Source: Leuconostoc rapi (lineage in GTDB: Bacteria; Bacillota; Bacilli; Lactobacillales; Lactobacillaceae). Taken from it: 64,000 nucleotides of DNA. The stretch is taken from positions 124,001-188,000 of the forward strand of contig NZ_JAFBEK010000001.1 in the NCBI RefSeq assembly GCF_016908715.1, read 5' to 3'. Below the pieces are notes generated by a model. The model saw only the letters and a program-made list of their open reading frames with translations. It was not told where the DNA came from and did not search any database. Shown here one piece after another: positions 29,549 to 59,727 of this stretch (position 1 is the first letter of the stretch; each line of letters opens with the position of its first letter). A program made the translations under genes and the position numbers.

Positions 29549-29577
29549 TTGACATATTTTGATAAAGTTGTTATTAT
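29549..29577 (+). promoter_or_regulatory. promoter of the mmuP T-box leader
   Basis: TTGACA (29549-29554), a 17-base spacer and TATTAT (29572-29577) lie just before the T-box leader. Confidence 0.75.
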
Positions 29578-29587
29578 ATTCTCAACA

Positions 29588-29865
29588 GTGAAGAGATAAG
29601 TAATATGTTGAGCGCACTTAGAGAGTCTATGTTTGGTGAAAGTAGATTGCGTGATGATATGAAAATGGTCTTGGAGAGACACGTCATGGTGAGCATACGC
29701 TTATGCGTTGTGAGCAATGACCGGGTGAGCCCGTTATAGCAACAACAATTCCCGTTTTTAAAGTACGGCGATTGAATAAGGTATGTTTTTTAACATACAA
29801 ATACCGGGTGGTAACACGATAATTCGTCCCGCAGTTTGATTAGGTTCAAACTGCGGGATTTTTTT
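29588..29865 (+). promoter_or_regulatory. T-box leader (methionine) of mmuP-mmuM
   Basis: The leader opens with GAAGAGATAAGTA, has AGAGAGTC and TTTGGTGAAAGTAGA elements of stem I, the T-box core ACCGGGTGGTAACACG (29803-29818), and a terminator stem 29828-29837 with 29848-29857 followed by a T-run. The block GAAAATGGTCTTGGAG (29661-29676) is shared exactly with the leader at 33464, and its ATG (29665-29667) is the likely Met specifier. This fits the genes it controls. Confidence 0.88.
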
Positions 29866-29923: not shown

Positions 29924-31327
29924 ATGGCAGGAAAATTAAAACGTGCGATGACGGCACGACAAATACAAATGATTGGCTTAGCTAGCGGAATTGGCACAGG
30001 CCTTTTTCTATCATCAGCCTACACCATTCATACTGCAGGGGCTTTTGGCACTATATTAGCTTATAGCATCGGTGCAATTTTAGTTTATCTCGTCATGTTG
30101 AGCGTGGCTGAATTATCGATTGCAATGCCGCAAACAGGTGCATTTCATTACCATGCACAAAAATTGATTGGTCCAGCTACTGGCTTTTTTGTTGCCATTT
30201 CTTATTGGCTAACATGGACAGTGGCATTGGGGTCTGAATTTACAGCATCAGGAATCATCATGCAAAGATGGTTTCCAAATGTACCGGTTTGGGCATTTTC
30301 TGGTTTATTTATTGTTATTATTTTATTAAGTAATATATTCTCAGTTAAAATATTTGGTGAAAGTGAGTATTGGTTAGCTGCAATTAAGGTTGTTGCTATT
30401 ATTGCCTTTTTGGTTATTGGTGTTTTGATTTTGACAGGTGTTTTGCATTCTAGTCAAACACAAAACGTTGGATTTCAAAATGTTTTTAGCCATGGCCTTT
30501 TTCCAAATGGTATAGGTGCCGTATTTACAACGATGTTAGCGGTAAATTTTGCGTTCAGTGGAACTGAATTAATGGCTATTACTGCTGGTGAGGCCGCGGA
30601 TCCAACTCATGCAATAGCTAAAGCAGTTAAGGCTGTTTGGTGGCGCCAAGTGATATTTTTTATTGGCAGCATTACCATATTAGCTGCAATTATTCCTTAC
30701 GAGAAAGCTGGTGTCACACAGAGTCCATTTGTAACGGTATTTAGCATGATAGGGATTCCATATGCAGCAGACATCATGAATTTTGTTATTTTAACTGGCA
30801 TTATTTCGATGGCTAATTCAGGTTTATATGCATCAACACGTATGTTGTGGTCCTTAAGTCACGAGGGCTTGATTTCTGCCAAATTCGAAAAAGTTAACCA
30901 AAATGGCATTCCAATTCGAGCGCTTTTGGCAAGTTTAGTAGGTGCTTTATTAGCTTTGGGTTCGAGCTTTATGGCTGCGGGGTCGCTATACTTGATATTA
31001 GTCGAGGTTTCTGGTTTAGCAGTTGTATTTGTATGGGTAGCAATCAGTTGGTCACATTATAAGTATTATCAACTGTTGACACGAGAAAAGCGGACACAAG
31101 ATTTGCGATATCCAAAATGGGCATACCCACTGTTACCGTTAGCTGGATTTATTGGATCATCATTGTCAATTATTTTAGTTGTTTTTGATCCCGAACAACT
31201 TGGTGCACTGCTCTGGTCAATACCTTTTATAATCATTGTCTATGGGTATTATTATTTGCGATTTAAGTGGTGGCCAAAACATCATTTAACAGCAGTTAAG
31301 GCATCCAAACAAACTGTAGGAGAGTAA
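29924..31327 (+). CDS. mmuP: amino acid permease, probable S-methylmethionine permease
   Basis: This is a 467-residue APC-superfamily permease with about twelve helices and the family start GLASGIGTGLFLSSAYTIHTAG (residues about 18-39). It lies 2 bases before mmuM and behind a Met T-box. The S-methylmethionine assignment therefore rests on context; the sequence alone shows only an amino-acid/polyamine permease of the AAT type. GAGGA precedes the ATG. Confidence 0.82.
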   Translation: MAGKLKRAMTARQIQMIGLASGIGTGLFLSSAYTIHTAGAFGTILAYSIGAILVYLVMLSVAELSIAMPQTGAFHYHAQKLIGPATGFFVAISYWLTWTVALGSEFTASGIIMQRWFPNVPVWAFSGLFIVIILLSNIFSVKIFGESEYWLAAIKVVAIIAFLVIGVLILTGVLHSSQTQNVGFQNVFSHGLFPNGIGAVFTTMLAVNFAFSGTELMAITAGEAADPTHAIAKAVKAVWWRQVIFFIGSITILAAIIPYEKAGVTQSPFVTVFSMIGIPYAADIMNFVILTGIISMANSGLYASTRMLWSLSHEGLISAKFEKVNQNGIPIRALLASLVGALLALGSSFMAAGSLYLILVEVSGLAVVFVWVAISWSHYKYYQLLTREKRTQDLRYPKWAYPLLPLAGFIGSSLSIILVVFDPEQLGALLWSIPFIIIVYGYYYLRFKWWPKHHLTAVKASKQTVGE

Positions 31328-31329
31328 TC

Positions 31330-32250
31330 ATGACAAAATTTGAAACATATATCGCGTCAGGAACAGTCATATTAGATGGTGGTATGGGCAGTGAACTTGA
31401 AAAACGGCATATTGATGTGAATAATATTTGGTGGTCAGCATCAGCGTTGATCCAGTCACCAGATGATATTCGAGATATTCACAAAAATTATTTTAATTCA
31501 GGGGCTGCCTTGGCCATTACTGATACCTACCAAGCACACGTAAAATCTTTTACCGACCAAGGTTTAAGTGAGACAAAGGCTTATGAATTGATCGATTCTG
31601 CTGTCGCATTAGCTAAAAGTGGTCTCGAGAAATCTCATCGAAACAATGGGCTAATTGCTGGTTCTGTAGGACCTTATGGGGCTTATCTTGCAAATGGCGC
31701 AGAATATACAGGTCGTTATCATCTGACAGAACAGGCGTATCAGAATTTTCACCGGCCGCGTATAGCACGGTTGATCGCGGATGGCGTAGATATACTGGCC
31801 TTGGAAACAATGCCAAATTTTGAGGAAACCAAAGCGATAGGACATTTATTACAACAAGAGTTCCCAACAGTTGAAGCCTATTTATCTTTTGCTACGGAAG
31901 ATGGCGATCATTTGTGGGATGGCACGCCATTGGCAGGCGCTGTTGCTTACTTTGAAACGGTTGTTCAAATTAAAGCGATTGGTGTGAATTGCACATCACC
32001 TCAAAATATTTTACCGGCTTTAGAAAAGATTGCCCCAAATACAAGCAAAAAAATTGTTGTCTATCCCAATGCAGGGGACGAGTACGACCCGAAAACTAAA
32101 CGTTGGGTTAGTCAGCATGGCCCCATTAATTGGGCTGAATTAGTGCCATTGTGGCAAGCTGCTGGTGCTAGTTTAATTGGTGGTTGCTGTCGAACAAGTC
32201 CTGATGACATTCAGGAAATTGCTCAGGCCGTTATAGCTACTGAAAAATAA
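31330..32250 (+). CDS. mmuM: homocysteine S-methyltransferase
   Basis: This 306-residue TIM-barrel enzyme transfers a methyl group from S-methylmethionine (or SAM) to homocysteine, forming methionine. The start VILDGGMGSELEKR, the first zinc cysteine in GVNCTSP (about 220-226) and the GGCCRTSPDDI motif (about 284-294) with the other two zinc cysteines are intact. It is coupled to the permease upstream and belongs to the Met T-box operon. Confidence 0.95.
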   Translation: MTKFETYIASGTVILDGGMGSELEKRHIDVNNIWWSASALIQSPDDIRDIHKNYFNSGAALAITDTYQAHVKSFTDQGLSETKAYELIDSAVALAKSGLEKSHRNNGLIAGSVGPYGAYLANGAEYTGRYHLTEQAYQNFHRPRIARLIADGVDILALETMPNFEETKAIGHLLQQEFPTVEAYLSFATEDGDHLWDGTPLAGAVAYFETVVQIKAIGVNCTSPQNILPALEKIAPNTSKKIVVYPNAGDEYDPKTKRWVSQHGPINWAELVPLWQAAGASLIGGCCRTSPDDIQEIAQAVIATEK

Positions 32251-32310: not shown

Positions 32311-32421
32311 ATGATCACCAATCTAAAAATATACTATTTGCATAGTGACAAAATTACAACAAGTGTCTTTTTAAAAGGTTGCGGCGCAGTGGATGATATT
32401 ATGTTCTATTTGGCGATTTGA
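32311..32421 (+). CDS. conserved short ORF before metF (leader peptide candidate)
   Basis: A 36-codon ORF has AGAAGG 7 bases ahead of its ATG. Its core follows the pattern YYLHSxKIxTxVFLxGxGA, which recurs in the ORF before metE at 36545. Most matching codons differ at the third base (for example TAC/TAT, TTG/CTT, CAT/CAC, GGT/GGC), so selection appears to act on the peptide. The tail FYLAI is extra here. It ends 25 bases before metF. It has no run of Met codons. Function unknown. Confidence 0.65.
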   Translation: MITNLKIYYLHSDKITTSVFLKGCGAVDDIMFYLAI

Positions 32422-32446
32422 AAATAACAACAATAAGGACGAGAAG

Positions 32447-33334
32447 ATGACTAAAATATCTGAAATATATCATACCAAACCAACACCAGTACTATCATTT
32501 GAAATTTTTCCACCAAAAAAAGAAGGTGGCATCGAATCACTTTATCGAACATTAGATGAAGTCAATCCACAAAAATTAGGGGTTGATTTTATCAGTGTGA
32601 CATATGGTGCTGGTGGTTCAGGTGATAATACCATGACACGAGATTTAGCACAATATATACAAACGCATTTCGGTGTTACGGCGCTTCACCACTTAACAGG
32701 GGTAAATCAAACACCAGAAAGCTTACGAGATAATTTGGAAAAAATTAAGCAAGTAGGGATCGAAAATATTCTTGCGTTGCGCGGTGATTTACCAGATAAA
32801 GACTATGTCAATGCTAACTATCCATATGCTAAAGACTTAATTTGTGATATTAAAGCGTTTAGTGGCTTTAACGTAGGAGCAGCAATTTATCCAGAAGGAC
32901 ATGTGGACAATCCTATTACTGGCATTAGCGTCGCTGGAGTTAAAGAAAAAATTACGAGTGGCACTGATTTTTTAATTTCTCAATTTTTCTTTGAAAATGA
33001 TGTTTATTATCATATGCAAGAAGTTTTGAAAAATAATTATATTAAAGTGCCGGTATCTGCTGGTGTCATGCCGATAATTAGTAAGGCCCAGGTGGAACGT
33101 ATGACCTATATGATCGGATCATCCTTACCGGCACGATTAGTTAAACTGATCCATAAATATGAAAATAATCCGGAAGATTTAAAAAAAGCTGGTATAGACT
33201 ATGCACTCGAACAAATTCAAGATTTGTTAGATCATGGTGTTGATGGGATTCATTTATATGCTATGAATCGGCCAAGCGTACTGAAAAGTATGTTACCTAT
33301 CATTAATCAAGAAATTGCAGCCAAACATTTTTAA
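32447..33334 (+). CDS. metF: methylenetetrahydrofolate reductase
   Basis: This is a 295-residue TIM-barrel flavoprotein of the MetF family. Visible are SFEIFPPKKEGG near the N-terminus (Glu is catalytic in the family), DFISVTYGAGGSG (about 46-58), NILALRGDLP (about 106-115) and the FAD/folate region ending DGIHLYAMNRP. It makes 5-methyltetrahydrofolate for MetE. The start is ATG 32447 with AAGGA upstream; earlier in-frame codons belong to the leader. It follows mmuM and the short conserved ORF. Confidence 0.94.
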   Translation: MTKISEIYHTKPTPVLSFEIFPPKKEGGIESLYRTLDEVNPQKLGVDFISVTYGAGGSGDNTMTRDLAQYIQTHFGVTALHHLTGVNQTPESLRDNLEKIKQVGIENILALRGDLPDKDYVNANYPYAKDLICDIKAFSGFNVGAAIYPEGHVDNPITGISVAGVKEKITSGTDFLISQFFFENDVYYHMQEVLKNNYIKVPVSAGVMPIISKAQVERMTYMIGSSLPARLVKLIHKYENNPEDLKKAGIDYALEQIQDLLDHGVDGIHLYAMNRPSVLKSMLPIINQEIAAKHF

Positions 33335-33350
33335 AATTTGTGAGATTTGG

Positions 33351-33379
33351 TTGACAAAATAATGAATGTTTGATAACAT
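33351..33379 (+). promoter_or_regulatory. promoter of the second Met T-box leader
   Basis: TTGACA (33351-33356), a 17-base spacer and TAACAT (33374-33379, a weaker -10) lie just ahead of the T-box leader. Confidence 0.6.
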
Positions 33380-33390
33380 AATTATAACGT

Positions 33391-33709
33391 TGAAGAGATA
33401 AGTATTAATTTAACACGCGAAGAGAGTTTACGGTTGGTGAGAGTAAATGGTGGGCAGATTAAGAAAATGGTCTTGGAGTTATCGTATGGCGAGTGTGAAT
33501 CGACCTCAGTCGGTAGACACATAAACCATACTCGGGAGAGCCCGTTACAGCGACATCGGTTCCTTGAAAGTGTGTGGCATGGAGATGCCAACATACTGAT
33601 AGCGACTGATAAGAGGTGTGCTTTTGTAATGATTTAGGCACATAAATACCGGGTGGTAACACGAGATTTCGTCCCGCAGATTAATTTTTTTAGTCTGCGG
33701 GATTTTTTA
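33391..33709 (+). promoter_or_regulatory. T-box leader (methionine) of the SsuABC-like operon
   Basis: The 406-base gap after metF holds a second T-box: the opening GAAGAGATAAGTA, TTGGTGAGAGTAAA, the block GAAAATGGTCTTGGAG with probable Met specifier ATG (33467-33469), core ACCGGGTGGTAACACGAG and a terminator from CCCGCAGA...TCTGCGGG into a T-run. It is longer than the mmuP leader in the region between stem I and the antiterminator (about 33540-33640). Confidence 0.87.
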
Positions 33710-33741
33710 TTTGCCATACTTTTAGAAAGAAGGGGAGCAAG

Positions 33742-34695
33742 TTGAGTAATAATAGTCTGCTACGCAATTGGAGTAGTGTGATATTGATTGGTGTTGTACT
33801 GTTGGTGCATAACTTAGTACCAAACAGCGTGACAAATTTTGAGAAACCACAACCTTATTTTAATATTTTACTGATTATCGTTTTTATTTTGAGTTTATTA
33901 CTGGCGATTGCTAACACAATAACTAAAAAAATAAAGGTATTTCAGTACAATTCGCCCAGAATCGGGGTTGCCTTTGCTTTAATTGGTATCTACGATTTAG
34001 CAACAGCAAAGTTTGGTTGGATAAATACGTTATTCTTTCCGAATCCTGATAAAATTTTTGGCGCTTTGGTTAATAATTCAGCGTTATTAGTTAAATGTTT
34101 AGGTTATTCCGTCTGGTTGCTTATTATTGGCTGGGTTATTGGTGGTATTTTGGGCGTTATAACTGGGGTATTGATTGGTTGGAGTACAAATTGGCATTAC
34201 TGGTTAGACCCTTTTGTTAAATTTCTAGGGCCAATTCCACCAACTGTTTTGATTCCGATTGCTTTGTCTGCTTTTCCAACAAGTTTTGCAGCGAGTGCAT
34301 TTTTATTAGCTTTGTCAATGTGGTTTCCGGTCACAATACTGACGAATTCAGGCGTTGCTAGTGTTCGAATTGATTATCTAGAAGTTGCTGATACGATGGG
34401 TGCTAGTACAATTCAAAAAATATTTAAAGTTGCTTTGCCTGCATCATTGCCAAGTATTTTTGTCGGATTATTTAACGGCATATGCGCATCCTTTATTACG
34501 TTAATGGTGGCAGAAATGTTAGGTGTGAAGTATGGCCTTGGTTGGTATATCAACTGGCAACGAGAAATTATGGGATATGCTAACGTTTACGCGGGGCTGA
34601 TTGTGTTGGCAATTGCATTTTCATTAATCATTACAATTTTATTTAGAATACGTGATCACTTCTTAAAGTGGCAAGAGGGCTTGATTAAATGGTAG
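33742..34695 (+). CDS. ABC transporter permease, SsuC/TauC type
   Basis: This is a 317-residue polytopic protein with two extra N-terminal helices and a BPD_transp_1 core containing the EAA-type loop LEVADTMGASTIQKIFKVALPASLPSIF. That is typical for nitrate/sulfonate/taurine/thiamine-precursor importers. The start is TTG 33742 with GGGGAG upstream. It is controlled by a Met T-box, so the cargo is probably a sulfur compound that yields or spares methionine; the exact substrate is not visible. Confidence 0.85.
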   Translation: MSNNSLLRNWSSVILIGVVLLVHNLVPNSVTNFEKPQPYFNILLIIVFILSLLLAIANTITKKIKVFQYNSPRIGVAFALIGIYDLATAKFGWINTLFFPNPDKIFGALVNNSALLVKCLGYSVWLLIIGWVIGGILGVITGVLIGWSTNWHYWLDPFVKFLGPIPPTVLIPIALSAFPTSFAASAFLLALSMWFPVTILTNSGVASVRIDYLEVADTMGASTIQKIFKVALPASLPSIFVGLFNGICASFITLMVAEMLGVKYGLGWYINWQREIMGYANVYAGLIVLAIAFSLIITILFRIRDHFLKWQEGLIKW

Positions 34696-35462
34696 CGAGA
34701 ACAGAAGAAATTAGGGTAGAAAATTTAAGAAAAGTATTTCCGAGTCGTGATCTGAATAAACCTGATGTGGTGGCATTGGATCACGTTGATGCTAAAATCA
34801 TGCCGGGAGAATTTGTCAGTCTAATTGGTCCATCTGGTTGTGGTAAAACCACGTGGTTACGATTAATATCAGGACTTGAAGTACCAACAGATGGCGCGAT
34901 TTACGTCGGTGATAAGAAAATAACGGCACCTGGTCGAGAGCGCGGACTAGTTTTTCAGGATCCAAATTTGTTTCCATGGTTGACAGTACAAGAAAATATA
35001 GCTTTTGGTCTAAAAATCAAAGGCAAACTAACGCAAGAAGATCATGAAAATATTGCTGAATTAATTACTTTAGTGGGTTTAACTGGGTTTGAAAAGTCTT
35101 ATCCTTATCAACTTTCTGGAGGTATGGCACATCGTGCAGCAATTGCGCGTGCCTTGGTAAATAATCCCGAAGTGTTATTGTTTGATGAACCTTTCGGGGC
35201 GCTCGATGCTTTTACACGTATGAAATTGCAAAATGATGTGCTAAGAATATGGCACGAAAGAAAGACAACAATGATTTTGGTGACACATGATGTGGAGGAA
35301 GCTATATTTTTAGGACAACGTGTGTTTGCAATGACACCACGGCCGGCACGTGTCAAAAAAATCATCAATATTAAGTTAGATTACCCAAGAAAAAGAGACG
35401 ATCAGACATTTATCGCGCTCAAAGAAGAAGTTTTGAGTGTGCTAGATTTTCATAATATTTGA
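34689..35462 (+). CDS. ABC transporter ATPase, SsuB/TauB type
   Basis: This is a 257-residue ABC ATPase: Walker A GPSGCGKTTWLR (about 48-59), LVFQDPNLFPWLTVQENI (the FPW motif is typical of the nitrate/sulfonate/taurine group), signature LSGGMAHRAAIARAL (about 139-153) and Walker B VLLFDEPFGALDAFTR. It overlaps the permease gene by 7 bases. Confidence 0.9.
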   Translation: MVARTEEIRVENLRKVFPSRDLNKPDVVALDHVDAKIMPGEFVSLIGPSGCGKTTWLRLISGLEVPTDGAIYVGDKKITAPGRERGLVFQDPNLFPWLTVQENIAFGLKIKGKLTQEDHENIAELITLVGLTGFEKSYPYQLSGGMAHRAAIARALVNNPEVLLFDEPFGALDAFTRMKLQNDVLRIWHERKTTMILVTHDVEEAIFLGQRVFAMTPRPARVKKIINIKLDYPRKRDDQTFIALKEEVLSVLDFHNI

Positions 35463-35472
35463 GGAATGAAAA

Positions 35473-36492
35473 ATGAAGAGAAAATATATTTATTCTGGAA
35501 TTGTCGCATTGGTTCTAGTATTTGTAACTGTTGTGTTGTTTCTGACAACAGGTCAACACAAAACGGTTGCCAATGATAGTTCAGACAAAAACTTTGTTTT
35601 AAAAATAGCGGAAAATAACGATTTATGTGGCGCGCCACAGCAGTTGGCCATAGCTAAGGGCTACTTTAAAGAGGAAGGATTAAAAATTAAAGTAGTTAAG
35701 CTTGGATCAGATACAACCAATTTTGAAGGTGTCAATTCAGGTAAAATAGATGCGTCTAACTCCATGATGGGGAGTTTAGTTCAACCATTAGCAAACGGAG
35801 CAAAAATTAAAATTACTACCGGTTTGCATACTGGGTGTTTACAAATTTTAGTTAAAAAAGGGAGCACAATTAAATCTGCTAAAGATCTTATCGGCAAAAA
35901 GGTGGGCGTAGGTGATATTGCGGGTTCGGCTGCTACTTATGTCAGACGTTACTTAGGACATTATGGTGTAGACGTGTCAGCCCAACATTCACAAGTACAG
36001 TTAGCTGCTTACTCAGCATCAGAATTGCCTATTGTGTTACAAAAAGGACAAGTTGATGCTATTGCACTAGGTGATCCAGATACTGAAATTGATAAAGCAA
36101 AGTATAATTTGATAACATTAAGTGCCTCAGCAACTGATCCAGCATTTAAAGATGAGTACTGCTGTGTGGCATATGTTTCAGACGATATTGCAAAAAACCA
36201 TCCGGCAGTTGCAGCCAAATATACACTAGCCTTACAAAAGGGTGCTAAATGGGCAGAAGAACATCCAGAAGAAACAGTAGCGATTCAAACAAGTCAGCAT
36301 TATATAGATGGGGATAAAAAGTTGAATACTAAAATGTTGAAATCTTATCAGTTTAAGCCTTCTTATTCCGGTGCAAAGAAAGCCTTTACTAAAGTTGGTG
36401 GAGATTTGCAAAAGTTAAATGTGGTCGATAAAAATGTTGATTTAAAAGCACTCAGACAAGCATCATTCTTTAAAACAACAGCTTCAAATTAA
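35473..36492 (+). CDS. ABC transporter substrate-binding protein, NMT1/SsuA type
   Basis: The 339-residue protein has an N-terminal hydrophobic helix (about 6-26) and an NMT1-like type II binding fold (ENNDLCGAPQQLAIAKGYFKEEGL; GVNSGKIDASN; GKKVGVGDIAGSA). There is no lipobox cysteine, so it is probably membrane-anchored by its N-terminal helix. Unusually for an exported protein it has four cysteines (about 51, 123, and an adjacent pair near 232-233). Last gene of the Met T-box operon. Confidence 0.85.
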   Translation: MKRKYIYSGIVALVLVFVTVVLFLTTGQHKTVANDSSDKNFVLKIAENNDLCGAPQQLAIAKGYFKEEGLKIKVVKLGSDTTNFEGVNSGKIDASNSMMGSLVQPLANGAKIKITTGLHTGCLQILVKKGSTIKSAKDLIGKKVGVGDIAGSAATYVRRYLGHYGVDVSAQHSQVQLAAYSASELPIVLQKGQVDAIALGDPDTEIDKAKYNLITLSASATDPAFKDEYCCVAYVSDDIAKNHPAVAAKYTLALQKGAKWAEEHPEETVAIQTSQHYIDGDKKLNTKMLKSYQFKPSYSGAKKAFTKVGGDLQKLNVVDKNVDLKALRQASFFKTTASN

Positions 36493-36500
36493 TACATTTA

Positions 36501-36523
36501 GGCGATTATGTCGCCGTACATAA
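36501..36523 (+). repeat. short hairpin followed by GTACATAA (copy 2 of 2)
   Basis: GGCGA (36501-36505) pairs with TCGCC (36511-36515), followed by GTACATAA, as in the mraY-murD gap. It lies just ahead of the ribosome binding site of the short ORF before metE. Role unknown. Confidence 0.4.
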
Positions 36524-36544
36524 GAAAATTGAAAGGAGTTCGTC

Positions 36545-36640
36545 ATGCAAGTCAATAATGCGACAGTTTATTATCTTCACAGTAACAAAATCCTAACAGT
36601 CGTATTTTTAAATGGCAGCGGGGCTATGAATACTGTGTAA
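36545..36640 (+). CDS. conserved short ORF before metE (leader peptide candidate)
   Basis: A 31-codon ORF with a strong AAAGGAG site 7 bases before its ATG. It shares YYLHSxKIxTxVFLxGxGA with the ORF before metF, at similar length and position. A 7-bp stem (TGGCAGC 36613-36619 with GCTGCCA 36648-36654) spans its 3' end and stop. It ends 56 bases before metE; no intrinsic terminator is visible. Probably a leader peptide acting on metE expression; this is inference. Confidence 0.68.
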   Translation: MQVNNATVYYLHSNKILTVVFLNGSGAMNTV

Positions 36641-36696
36641 TTGATAAGCTGCCAGGTTAATTGTTTCAGAACAGGTTGATTATATAGGAGAAAAAT

Positions 36697-38994
36697 ATGA
36701 CTACAGTAAAATCATCAAATCTTGGTTACCCACGATTGGGCGAACAACGTGAATGGAAAAAGCTTTTAGAATCATTTTGGAAAGAAGATATTGATGTCTT
36801 GACATTTGAAAAAACGGCAAAAGCATTACGCTTAACTAATTTGAAAAAACAAATTGATGCAGGTATTGACATCGTTCCTGTTGCTGATAACTCAAACTAT
36901 GATCATGTTTTAGACACAGCTACAGCATTTAATCTAATTCCGACTCGCTTTGGAAGTTATGACAGACCACTGACTTTGAATGAATATTACGATATAGCAC
37001 GAGGGAACAAAGAAAATGTCGCCGCTGACATGACCAAATGGTTTAATATTAATTATCATTACACGGTGACGGAATTTGATAATACAACGCCCAGACTGTT
37101 AGAAAATCGTTGGTTAAAGTATTGGCAAGAAGCTAATGATGAATTAGGTATTAACGGTAAGCCAGTTATTGTTGGACCAGTGACACTCATAAAATTAGGT
37201 AAATTAAATGGTGATTATGTTTCAAGCGAAAGTGACATCAATAAATTGCTTGATGTGATTTTGCCACTGTACCAACAAGTATTTACAGAATTACAACAAG
37301 CAGGTGTGAATTGGGTACAACTTGATGAGCCTACTTTGGTGAAACTTGAAGATGAAGCAGGTGTGGCGCCATATCGCCGTGTAGTTGAAGCATTAAGAGA
37401 AGCTGCGCCATCATTGAATATCGAATTACAGACATACTTTGATTCAATTGATCCTTACCAAGCAGTGACGCAATTACCTGTTCAAGCTATTGGCCTTGAT
37501 TTCGTTCATGGACATGGCGAAAATCTAGCACATGTTCGTGAGTTTGGCTTTCCAAAAGATAAAGTTTTGGCTGCTGGTGTCATTGATGGTCATAATGTTT
37601 GGACAGCTGATTTGTCAAAGAAGCTACAATTGGTTCGTGAGTTACAAGATGCAGCTTCTGAGTTATGGATCCAGCCCTCAAATACCTTACTTCACGTACC
37701 AATTACAACTAAGTACGAAACAGCGGCTGGTCCAGAACTACTGGGTGGCTTGGCGTTTGCTGATGAAAAGTTACAAGAAATTGTCACATTGACACAAACG
37801 TTAAATGGCCAAGATACCCGTGCGGCTTTGGCTAAAAACACTGCAGCATTAAAAGCATTGAATGAATCAAAAGCACGTAATAATGCATCAGTGCAAACTG
37901 CAATCAAGCATTTGGGTGATACAGTATTTGAACGTCAAGGCAAGTATGTTGATCGTGCTATTGCACAACAAGATCGATTACAATTACCTAAATTACCTAC
38001 GACAACAATTGGGTCGTTCCCACAATCTTCTGAAGTGCGTGCAAAGCGTGCCGCATGGCGTAAAGGACGTTTGTCAGATGAAGCATATCAGGCATTTATC
38101 GAATCAGAAACTAAGCGCTGGTTGAAAATACAAGAAGATATTGGTTTAGATGTACTTGTTCACGGCGAATTTGAACGAACAGACATGGTTGAATACTTTG
38201 GACAAAAGTTAGACGGCTTTTATGCAACACAAAATGGTTGGGTTCAATCATATGGTTCACGAGGGGTTCGACCACCAGTTATTTTCGGGGATGTTGATTA
38301 CACCGAACCAATTACTGTTGCAGCTTCACAATTTGCACAATCACAAACTAAAAAAATCGTTAAGGGTATGTTGACGGCACCATTAACAATTATTAATTGG
38401 TCATTTGTACGTGACGATATTGATCGTGCGGATGTTCAAAATCAAATTGCTTTGGCATTACGTCAAGAAGTGTTGAATTTAGAGAAGGCAGGCATTAAAA
38501 TTATACAGGTTGATGAGCCTGCTTTACGAGAAGGTTTGCCACTTAAACAACGTTCTTGGCAAGATTATTTAGATGAAGCAGTTTATTCATTTAAAATAAC
38601 AACGTCTGGTGTTGGTAATGAGACGCAAATTCATACGCATATGTGTTATTCTGATTTTGAAGATATCATTGATACGATTTCAGCGTTAGACGCGGATGTT
38701 ATTTCAATTGAAACATCACGTTCTCATGGCGAAATTATCTCTGCATTTGAAGATGCCGACTATGACAAACAAATTGGTTTGGGTGTCTACGATATTCACT
38801 CACCACGTATACCAACTGTTGATGAAATTGCTGATAATATTCGACGTGGCTTGAAAGTTATTGATGAAAAACAGTTTTGGGTTAACCCTGATTGCGGTTT
38901 GAAAACACGTACCGAAGATCAAACTAAGACGGCTTTGACGAATCTGGAAAAAGCACGTAATATTGTACTCAAGGAGTTAGTAGCAGAAGCTTAA
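36697..38994 (+). CDS. metE: cobalamin-independent methionine synthase MetE
   Basis: This is a 765-residue double-barrel enzyme that transfers the methyl group of 5-methyltetrahydropteroyl-polyglutamate to homocysteine. The zinc ligands sit in THMCYSDF (His and Cys) and NPDCGLKTR (Cys) near the C-terminus, and the substrate motif [12 protein letters not shown] is intact. The N-terminal barrel starts [21 protein letters not shown] precedes the ATG. Its partner metF lies 3.4 kb upstream, with a related short ORF before each gene. Confidence 0.97.
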
Positions 38995-55095: not shown

Positions 55096-55101
55096 TATTT
55101 T

Positions 55102-55337
55102 CAATAACGTTGATAAGGACAACTTGATTGTAACAAATCTTAAGAGAACCCATATTTGGTGAAAATGGGTGGTTTGTGAATGAGAGACTACCTTTGAGTG
55201 ATGTCTAGTAATTTTTTGAAAAACATTCGGGTGACACCGTTAGCTGTCATTTAAGTAGCACATATCTCGTGCTGAACTTGGGTGGTACCACGGTGAAACG
55301 TCCCTTTAAGCTTACTAGCTTAGAGGGACGTTTTTAT
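55102..55337 (+). promoter_or_regulatory. T-box leader (threonine) of thrS
   Basis: The leader has AAGAGAACCC, TTTGGTGAAAATGGGT, the T-box GAACTTGGGTGGTACCACGG (55274-55293) and a terminator 55298-55311 with 55318-55331 followed by T-run. The likely specifier is ACC (55190-55192, Thr). Uncharged tRNA-Thr would allow thrS expression. Confidence 0.9.
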
Positions 55338-59568: not shown

Positions 59569-59691
59569 TGTTGAACAAGTAGAAGCGCCCGCTTCTCGCC
59601 AAGTGACAATGTTTCTTGGCAGATACAGTTATCCGTAAGGATTGCAAGTGTTGAAGTGGGTGAAGATTAGGTTCTTTACCCACTTTTTTCT
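59569..59691 (+). promoter_or_regulatory. L20-type autoregulatory leader of infC-rpmI-rplT
   Basis: The leader contains AGAAGCGCCCGCTTCT and the paired GCCAAG/CTTGGC, as in L20 leaders of Firmicutes. A terminator AAGTGGGT/ACCCACTT (59654-59661 with 59678-59685) follows with a T-run. Excess L20 would bind the leader and favour termination. Class assigned by position and pattern. Confidence 0.75.
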
Positions 59692-59727
59692 GCTTGATTC
59701 GCAAAATAAATTTGGAGGTGCCTGACA

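Follow-up and report, generated by a model that had tools for sequence, protein, structure and literature searches.

A 64,000-nucleotide (nt) stretch of Leuconostoc rapi DNA, referred to below as the window, carries metF and metE, and each of these two genes is preceded by a short open reading frame (mini-ORF) that follows a gene of the same operon (Table 1). The first-pass annotation of this DNA had proposed that these mini-ORFs belong to a new family of leader peptides on methionine genes, and our results support this proposal. The two short ORFs were found at the same coordinates, Shine-Dalgarno-like sequences are present in front of them, and the core YYLHSxKIxTxVFLxGxGA that had been described for the pair is seen in both peptides; 8 of the 14 identical core residues are encoded by different codons. 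A search of the 1.92-Mb genome with its metE peptide recovered the metF copy at E=4.2e-6, a similarity above chance, together with a third copy on another contig (E=7.0e-6). This third copy (L004:6297-6395, MIVNCQNVYYLHADKLVTAVFLKSSGAVDEVG) lies 46 nt downstream of an O-acetylhomoserine sulfhydrylase gene and 96 nt upstream of a gene for a core-MetE methionine synthase; such core-metE genes are labelled yxjH here, after what we take to be their Bacillus subtilis homologue. Counted from the invariant His, codon 20 is AUG in mini-ORF 1 (32401-32403) and the stop codon in mini-ORF 2 (36638-36640). Absent from the first-pass annotation were the third copy and two features described below, namely the T-boxes with a Met specifier and, at codon 20, the AUG or stop codon that shows complementarity to the main start region.

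The distribution of the family was followed in genome sets that are even samples, not all genomes. A three-row profile matched 29 of 301 Lactobacillaceae genomes (E<=0.01), and a 32-row profile found 54 copies in 34 of 397 Lactobacillaceae genomes from 6 of 40 genera (E<=1e-3); the latter profile matched 6 genomes among 395 Lactobacillales, all of them Lactobacillaceae, and among 106 Bacilli genomes only the window's own genome matched the mini-ORF profile. In 54 of 54 profile matches, the next ORF of at least 100 amino acids (aa) is metE, metF, or core-metE (BLAST against the window genes and L004). Homologous ORFs upstream of these genes, as the proposal of a family implies, are thus present in relatives. 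A degenerate 55th copy, in G016, also lies upstream of metF; it was over the threshold in the first profile search only and was kept, giving n=55 for the counts below. Two weak matches of the first profile, in G215 (E=0.008) and G112:C1 (E=0.003), have no met gene behind them; neither reappeared in the second search at E<=1e-3, and both were left out of all counts. A scan of named genomes, not a census because it used one pattern only, gave nine loci, in Leuconostoc miyukkimchii, Leuconostoc falkenbergense, Leuconostoc pseudomesenteroides, Leuconostoc holzapfelii, Leuconostoc inhae, Paucilactobacillus vaccinostercus (twice), Paucilactobacillus kaifaensis, and Paucilactobacillus wasatchensis. 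The peptides matched no curated family in Pfam or NCBIfam (0 of 32 at E<=0.1), Rfam gave no match at the window's mini-ORFs, and literature searches found neither a report on the family nor, in print, a conserved ribosome-arrest leader peptide for bacterial methionine synthesis.

Among the 19 Leuconostoc genomes sampled, metF is present in 16 and is directly preceded by a mini-ORF in 12 of these (the degenerate copy of G016 counted), while full-length metE is present in 12 and has a mini-ORF directly in front in 9; the remaining three (G112, G251, and G266) have the mini-ORF before metF, followed by metE. Neither metF nor full-length metE was detected in G235, G293, and G318, which keep a copy before core-metE. 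Some genomes carry three or four copies, and G328 has four, one for each of its own met genes, one of these genes being broken; the pairing of one copy with each gene fits an action in cis. In G328, the second core-metE is divided between two ORFs (L096, 1643-2856), and the leader of this gene is the most diverged of the 54 (E=1.2e-6); gene and leader may be decaying together. In L. miyukkimchii (G280; L107/L123), metF contains an in-frame TGA and no mini-ORF was seen before it; metE and two core-metE genes of this genome each retain a mini-ORF.

When the 55 distinct copies are aligned without gaps on the invariant His (that of G114 being shifted by one near the 3' end, as judged by eye), their consensus is KIYYLHxNKIxTAxFLxGxG, with the conserved positions Y-2 (54 of 55), L-1 (54), H0 (53), K3 (51), T6 (53), L10 (55), G12 (53), and G14 (54). 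The mini-ORFs are 28-46 aa long (median, 32), begin with ATG in 43 copies and GTG in 12, have a four-base Shine-Dalgarno match in 47, and end -4 to 535 nt (median, 54) from the main start. Their C-terminal tails are variable, with the stop at columns 20 to 36 and the core constant. Nonsynonymous (dN) and synonymous (dS) divergence amounted to 0.11-0.29 and 1.4-2.2, respectively, in six of seven groups, giving low dN/dS ratios of about 0.07-0.19; the seventh group, a two-member pair of Leuconostoc yxjH1 leaders, had a dN of 0.42 and a dS of 0.98. The peptide is under purifying selection, and a feature of arrest peptides, a conserved peptide in a fixed register with synonymous sites mostly free, is present. 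The earlier view that selection acts on the peptide rather than on the RNA stands for the core; codons 18-24 are, across the family, under an additional RNA-level constraint.

The codon at position 20 after the His is AUG in 36 copies, a stop in 8, and another codon in 11. Internal Met codons number none in 10 copies, one in 32, two in 12, and three in 1, and a run of Met codons is thus not a feature of the family; starvation attenuation by a Met-rich leader was rejected as a general account on the grounds of the 10 copies without an internal Met codon. The reading frame was found broken only in the near-identical G085 and G338, in which the mini-ORF before metF has an in-frame stop inside YYLH and further damage; as the two genomes look identical here, the breakage was probably one event. 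No full-length metE was found in G085 or G016, and G338 gave no match to the methionine synthase domain. The metF gene is open in G085 and matches in two pieces in G338, the assembly of which is fragmented (89% completeness).

T-boxes and mini-ORFs occur in tandem. We examined 18 longer loci with 22 mini-ORFs. A T-box precedes 14 of these mini-ORFs at a distance of about 60-410 nt without a recognised intervening gene on the same strand, and 5 (L102 metF, L104 metE, L108, L117, and L115 metE) are separated from the T-box by one to three genes, these five placements being partly inferred from the gene order of the window. For the other 3 (L107, L115 metF, and L116) the T-box is doubtful or absent, with L115 and L107 scanned for T-boxes at the gathering score only. 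Five of the T-boxes (L104 and L109-L112) scored 79.7-92.4 bits, under the gathering score of 93, at E<=1.2e-15. T-box and mini-ORF probably share a transcript. In the window, AUG stands at the specifier position of both T-boxes, as read from the alignment. The first T-box (promoter-like site, 29549-29577; terminator-like, 29826-29859) heads a permease-mmuM-mini-ORF-metF operon, and the second (promoter-like site, 33351-33379; terminator-like, 33671-33703) heads an ABC transporter-mini-ORF-metE operon; mini-ORFs 1 and 2 begin 60 and 52 nt behind the preceding gene. In a simple consensus scan of the window, neither a plus-strand promoter-like site nor a terminator-like site was found in the gaps that flank each mini-ORF, on the side of the preceding gene or on that of metF or metE. 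The first-pass annotation had likewise stated that no intrinsic terminator follows the mini-ORFs, and trpL-like transcription attenuation was rejected because none lies between mini-ORF and gene in the window.

Table 1. Features of the two methionine operons in the window and their supporting matches
Feature	Position	Strand	Evidence or remark
T-box leader, AUG (Met) specifier	29579..29834	+	Rfam RF00230, 90.4 bits, E=2.6e-19; below gathering score 93
Amino-acid permease, closest to S-methylmethionine permease (MmuP-like)	29924..31327	+	NCBIfam NF008484, E=5e-147, under curated cut-off
Homocysteine S-methyltransferase (mmuM)	31330..32250	+	NF007020, E=6e-119, above cut-off; PF02574
Mini-ORF 1, leader peptide MITNLKIYYLHSDKITTSVFLKGCGAVDDIMFYLAI	32311..32421	+	36 aa; invariant His is 11th codon
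metF, methylenetetrahydrofolate reductase	32447..33334	+	PF02219, E=6e-70; best NCBIfam TIGR00676, under cut-off
T-box leader, AUG (Met) specifier	33381..33679	+	RF00230, 100.7 bits
ABC transporter permease	33742..34695	+	PF00528
ABC transporter ATPase	34689..35462	+	PF00005
ABC transporter substrate-binding protein (NMT1/SsuA-like)	35473..36492	+	PF09084; TIGR01728 under cut-off
Mini-ORF 2, leader peptide MQVNNATVYYLHSNKILTVVFLNGSGAMNTV	36545..36640	+	31 aa
Possible 12-bp pairing arm in mini-ORF 2, codons 6-10	36598..36609	+	partner is metE start region, 36691-36702
metE, cobalamin-independent methionine synthase	36697..38994	+	TIGR01371 and NF003556, both above cut-off

Across the family, the 3' end of the mini-ORF is complementary to the start of the main gene. 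Where codon 19 encodes Val, it is GUC in 27 of 35 copies (5.7 would be expected), and no other codon bias in the ORF is as strong. Most main genes begin with AUGAC, to which GUCAU is complementary. A strict covariation of GUC with AUGAC was rejected, because GUC also occurs at three loci in which the main start is ATGAA or ATGGC. In sliding windows, the complementarity to the main start region peaks at codons 18-24 (mean z, -1.30), where the mean z is negative in 10 of 10 genus-by-gene groups and p<=0.05 is reached at 33% of the loci. Recoding that preserves the peptide gave a z of -1.21 at codon 19 overall; the 36 copies with AUG at codon 20 (the AUG-20 class) had -1.45, and the remaining 19 had -0.31 there and -1.16 at codon 20, a position at which few of these 19 have a testable window. 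Recoding of the whole ORF resulted in a mean z of -1.05 in the AUG-20 class (p<=0.05 in 9 of 36) and -0.26 in the rest (1 of 19), and when a window from codon 18 was matched against the own start and 91 other gene starts, the own start had a median rank of 0.20 within the AUG-20 class versus 0.60 among all other copies. Removal of codons 16-23, which mimics a stalled ribosome, made the start region easier to open by 3.3 kcal/mol on average; relative to shuffled arms, the mean z was 1.25, with p<=0.05 in 18 of 55 copies and p>=0.95 in none. A first duplex test, in which the mini-ORF was cut near codon 21, had given a mean z of -0.35 (6 of 55 at p<=0.05), and the later sliding windows reached further; folding of the whole mini-ORF with the start region against shuffles gave no uniform signal among the loci listed. 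Taken together, these data provide strong hints, not proof, of an RNA-level pairing signal. A signal that may reflect a sequestration of the start like that in erm leaders is seen family-wide and in the AUG-20 class, is not clear in the 19 copies without Met at codon 20, and is weak at the window's own loci. The whole-ORF duplex of mini-ORF 2 has an energy of -14.8 kcal/mol (z, -3.2) and was equalled by 0 of 200 synonymous recodings, and its 12-bp arm (Table 1) was not found in the homologues L036 and L095. At metE loci of genus g20 (e.g., L029, L030, and L032), the surroundings of GUCAUG at codons 18-23 may, as judged by eye, form a small local hairpin (CAGG...CCUG), which would replace pairing with the main start. 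Repeated hairpin-forming elements, very roughly 130-190 nt long by eye and starting near TTGCTGAAACGTG, lie between mini-ORF and core-metE at L016, L019, and L020; these loci belong to three Paucilactobacillus genomes, and their spacers measure 171-535 nt.

We consider it slightly more probable than otherwise that the mini-ORFs encode leader peptides acting in cis on the translation of the downstream methionine gene, through a start opened by stalling, and that they usually add a further tier of control to that of a Met T-box. The cis linkage, the presence of one paralogue per gene, and the conserved chain point to nascent-chain control in cis. In 44 of 55 copies an AUG or stop codon lies at the same distance from the His, which suggests that the ribosome stalls when codons 19 and 20 occupy the P and A sites, respectively. 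We infer the arrest itself, its site and trigger, the direction of the switch, and the following order of events. Once the T-box lets the polymerase through, a ribosome would translate the mini-ORF, and the conserved chain YYLHxNKIxTAxFLxGxG would slow or arrest it roughly 19-20 codons past the His, when an AUG or stop codon occupies the A site. The halted ribosome would cover the end of the mini-ORF; without it, a stretch that is often GUCAUGUG would, in many members, pair with the main start region (CAUGAC or the Shine-Dalgarno sequence) and keep the start shut. Arrest would then switch metE or metF on, most simply at a shortage of Met-tRNA, and completion of the mini-ORF would let the lock close. 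Copies without Met at codon 20 would have to use another mode or rely on termination.

A number of observations weigh against this model. Both the translation of the mini-ORFs and the ribosome arrest are predictions from sequence. Ten of the 55 copies have no Met codon beyond the start, so that starvation at Met codons cannot explain all of them, and the 19 copies without Met at codon 20 show no clear pairing at codons 18-19. The recoding control has a weaker second dip at codons 5-7 (z, -0.58 to -0.38), where 24-25% of loci reach p<=0.1, as many as at codons 17-18; the pairing signal is thus not confined to the 3' end. Against 23 ATGAC start regions, the AUG-20 class attained a median rank of only 0.22, and in genus g20 the change in start accessibility is at most 0.5 kcal/mol in 8 of 11 metE copies among the loci listed. 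At the window's own loci, the difference in start opening is 4.2 kcal/mol for metF (p, 0.17), 1.9 for metE (p, 0.04), and 0 for the third copy, with ranks versus other starts of 0.47, 0.27, and 0.60, respectively. The spacer exceeds 100 nt in four copies, with a maximum of 535 nt, and the downstream gene looks short or split in three of 55 (core-metE of G042, at 300 aa; metE of G282; and the second core-metE of G328). Finally, the RNA-level tests are not independent, because the loci share ancestry and the codon position was picked once the data had been seen.

The copies without an internal Met codon (10 of 55) also raise the possibility that arrest is triggered or relieved by a ligand and not by a shortage of Met-tRNA, with the nascent chain in the exit tunnel binding S-adenosylmethionine, homocysteine, methionine, or folate. 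A conserved chain of about 20 residues far exceeds what a starvation attenuator needs, and since the T-box already reads Met-tRNA, a second sensor would be most useful if it read something else. On the other hand, the AUG at codon 20 in 36 of 55 copies points to Met-tRNA, and a stall that opens the start would have to sense low product, unlike most ligand-induced arrests. We regard such ligand-dependent arrest as rather unlikely. Only a shade higher, and still doubtful, do we place the proposition that the chain senses a metabolite of the methionine cycle and so provides each operon with two independent readings, tRNA charging and metabolite level, common to three methionine enzymes.

Two further explanations were weighed. 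Plain translational coupling, in which the mini-ORF merely delivers ribosomes that unfold or re-initiate at the main start, accords with the 21 of 55 mini-ORFs that begin 24-64 nt behind a same-strand upstream ORF, with the median gap of 54 nt to the main start, and with the overlap of mini-ORF and metF start in G136. It has no need of a conserved peptide, however, yet dN/dS is about 0.07-0.19 in six of the seven groups and the core is kept, and the position of the stop varies (columns 20 to 36) whereas the core does not; we judge it improbable. The same strong conservation and low dN/dS would be expected of a small protein acting in trans, for example by binding MetE or MetF, but every copy found precedes a met gene, with up to four paralogues per genome and one per gene, the C-terminal tail is variable, and the choice among synonymous codons around positions 18-19 shows a constraint with respect to the main start that an action in trans would not need. 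This last explanation appears the least probable of all, and ribosome-based control in cis is favoured over it.

To our knowledge, only a small number of conserved leader peptides exert regulation through ribosome arrest. The mini-ORFs resemble ErmCL, TnaC, and SpeFL in being short ORFs with a conserved chain, an expected stall, and a predicted RNA rearrangement at the downstream gene; unlike these, they are directed at methionine synthesis, and in many members the 3' end of the ORF itself matches the main start. Pfam and NCBIfam gave no match for the mini-ORF peptides. The nearest architecture is that of B. subtilis rtpA/yczA (anti-TRAP), in which, as here, a T-box and then a leader ORF precede one gene. 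Stalling at rtpA is located in the leader peptide rtpLP, which has 10 residues with three Trp codons and is not known to have a conserved nascent chain. Tryptophan is regulated there and methionine here; the mini-ORFs have a median of 32 residues, their chain is conserved, and no more than one of their Met codons is. Because repeated regulated codons are lacking, we do not file the family with the T-box/rtpLP tandem. Control of anti-TRAP is described as the combination of a T-box with stalling-dependent control of translation (PMC11255114). Control by Met T-boxes, as in Staphylococcus aureus metICFE and as predicted in Leuconostoc, concerns the same pathway, to which the mini-ORF layer is an addition here. 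Six predicted Met T-boxes are listed for Leuconostoc mesenteroides in PMC3771891, and the phrase "leader peptide" is absent from the main text of that article.

The family is compact, occurs in several copies per genome, includes natural broken versions, and usually stands behind T-boxes, which makes it a directly testable system. It explains conserved small ORFs that have no counterpart in curated families and raises the question of why a ribosome-based switch would be added to an RNA switch that already reads the same amino acid. Elsewhere in the window, Rfam matches at 55101-55308 and 59571-59695 represent a further T-box and an L20 ribosomal protein leader.

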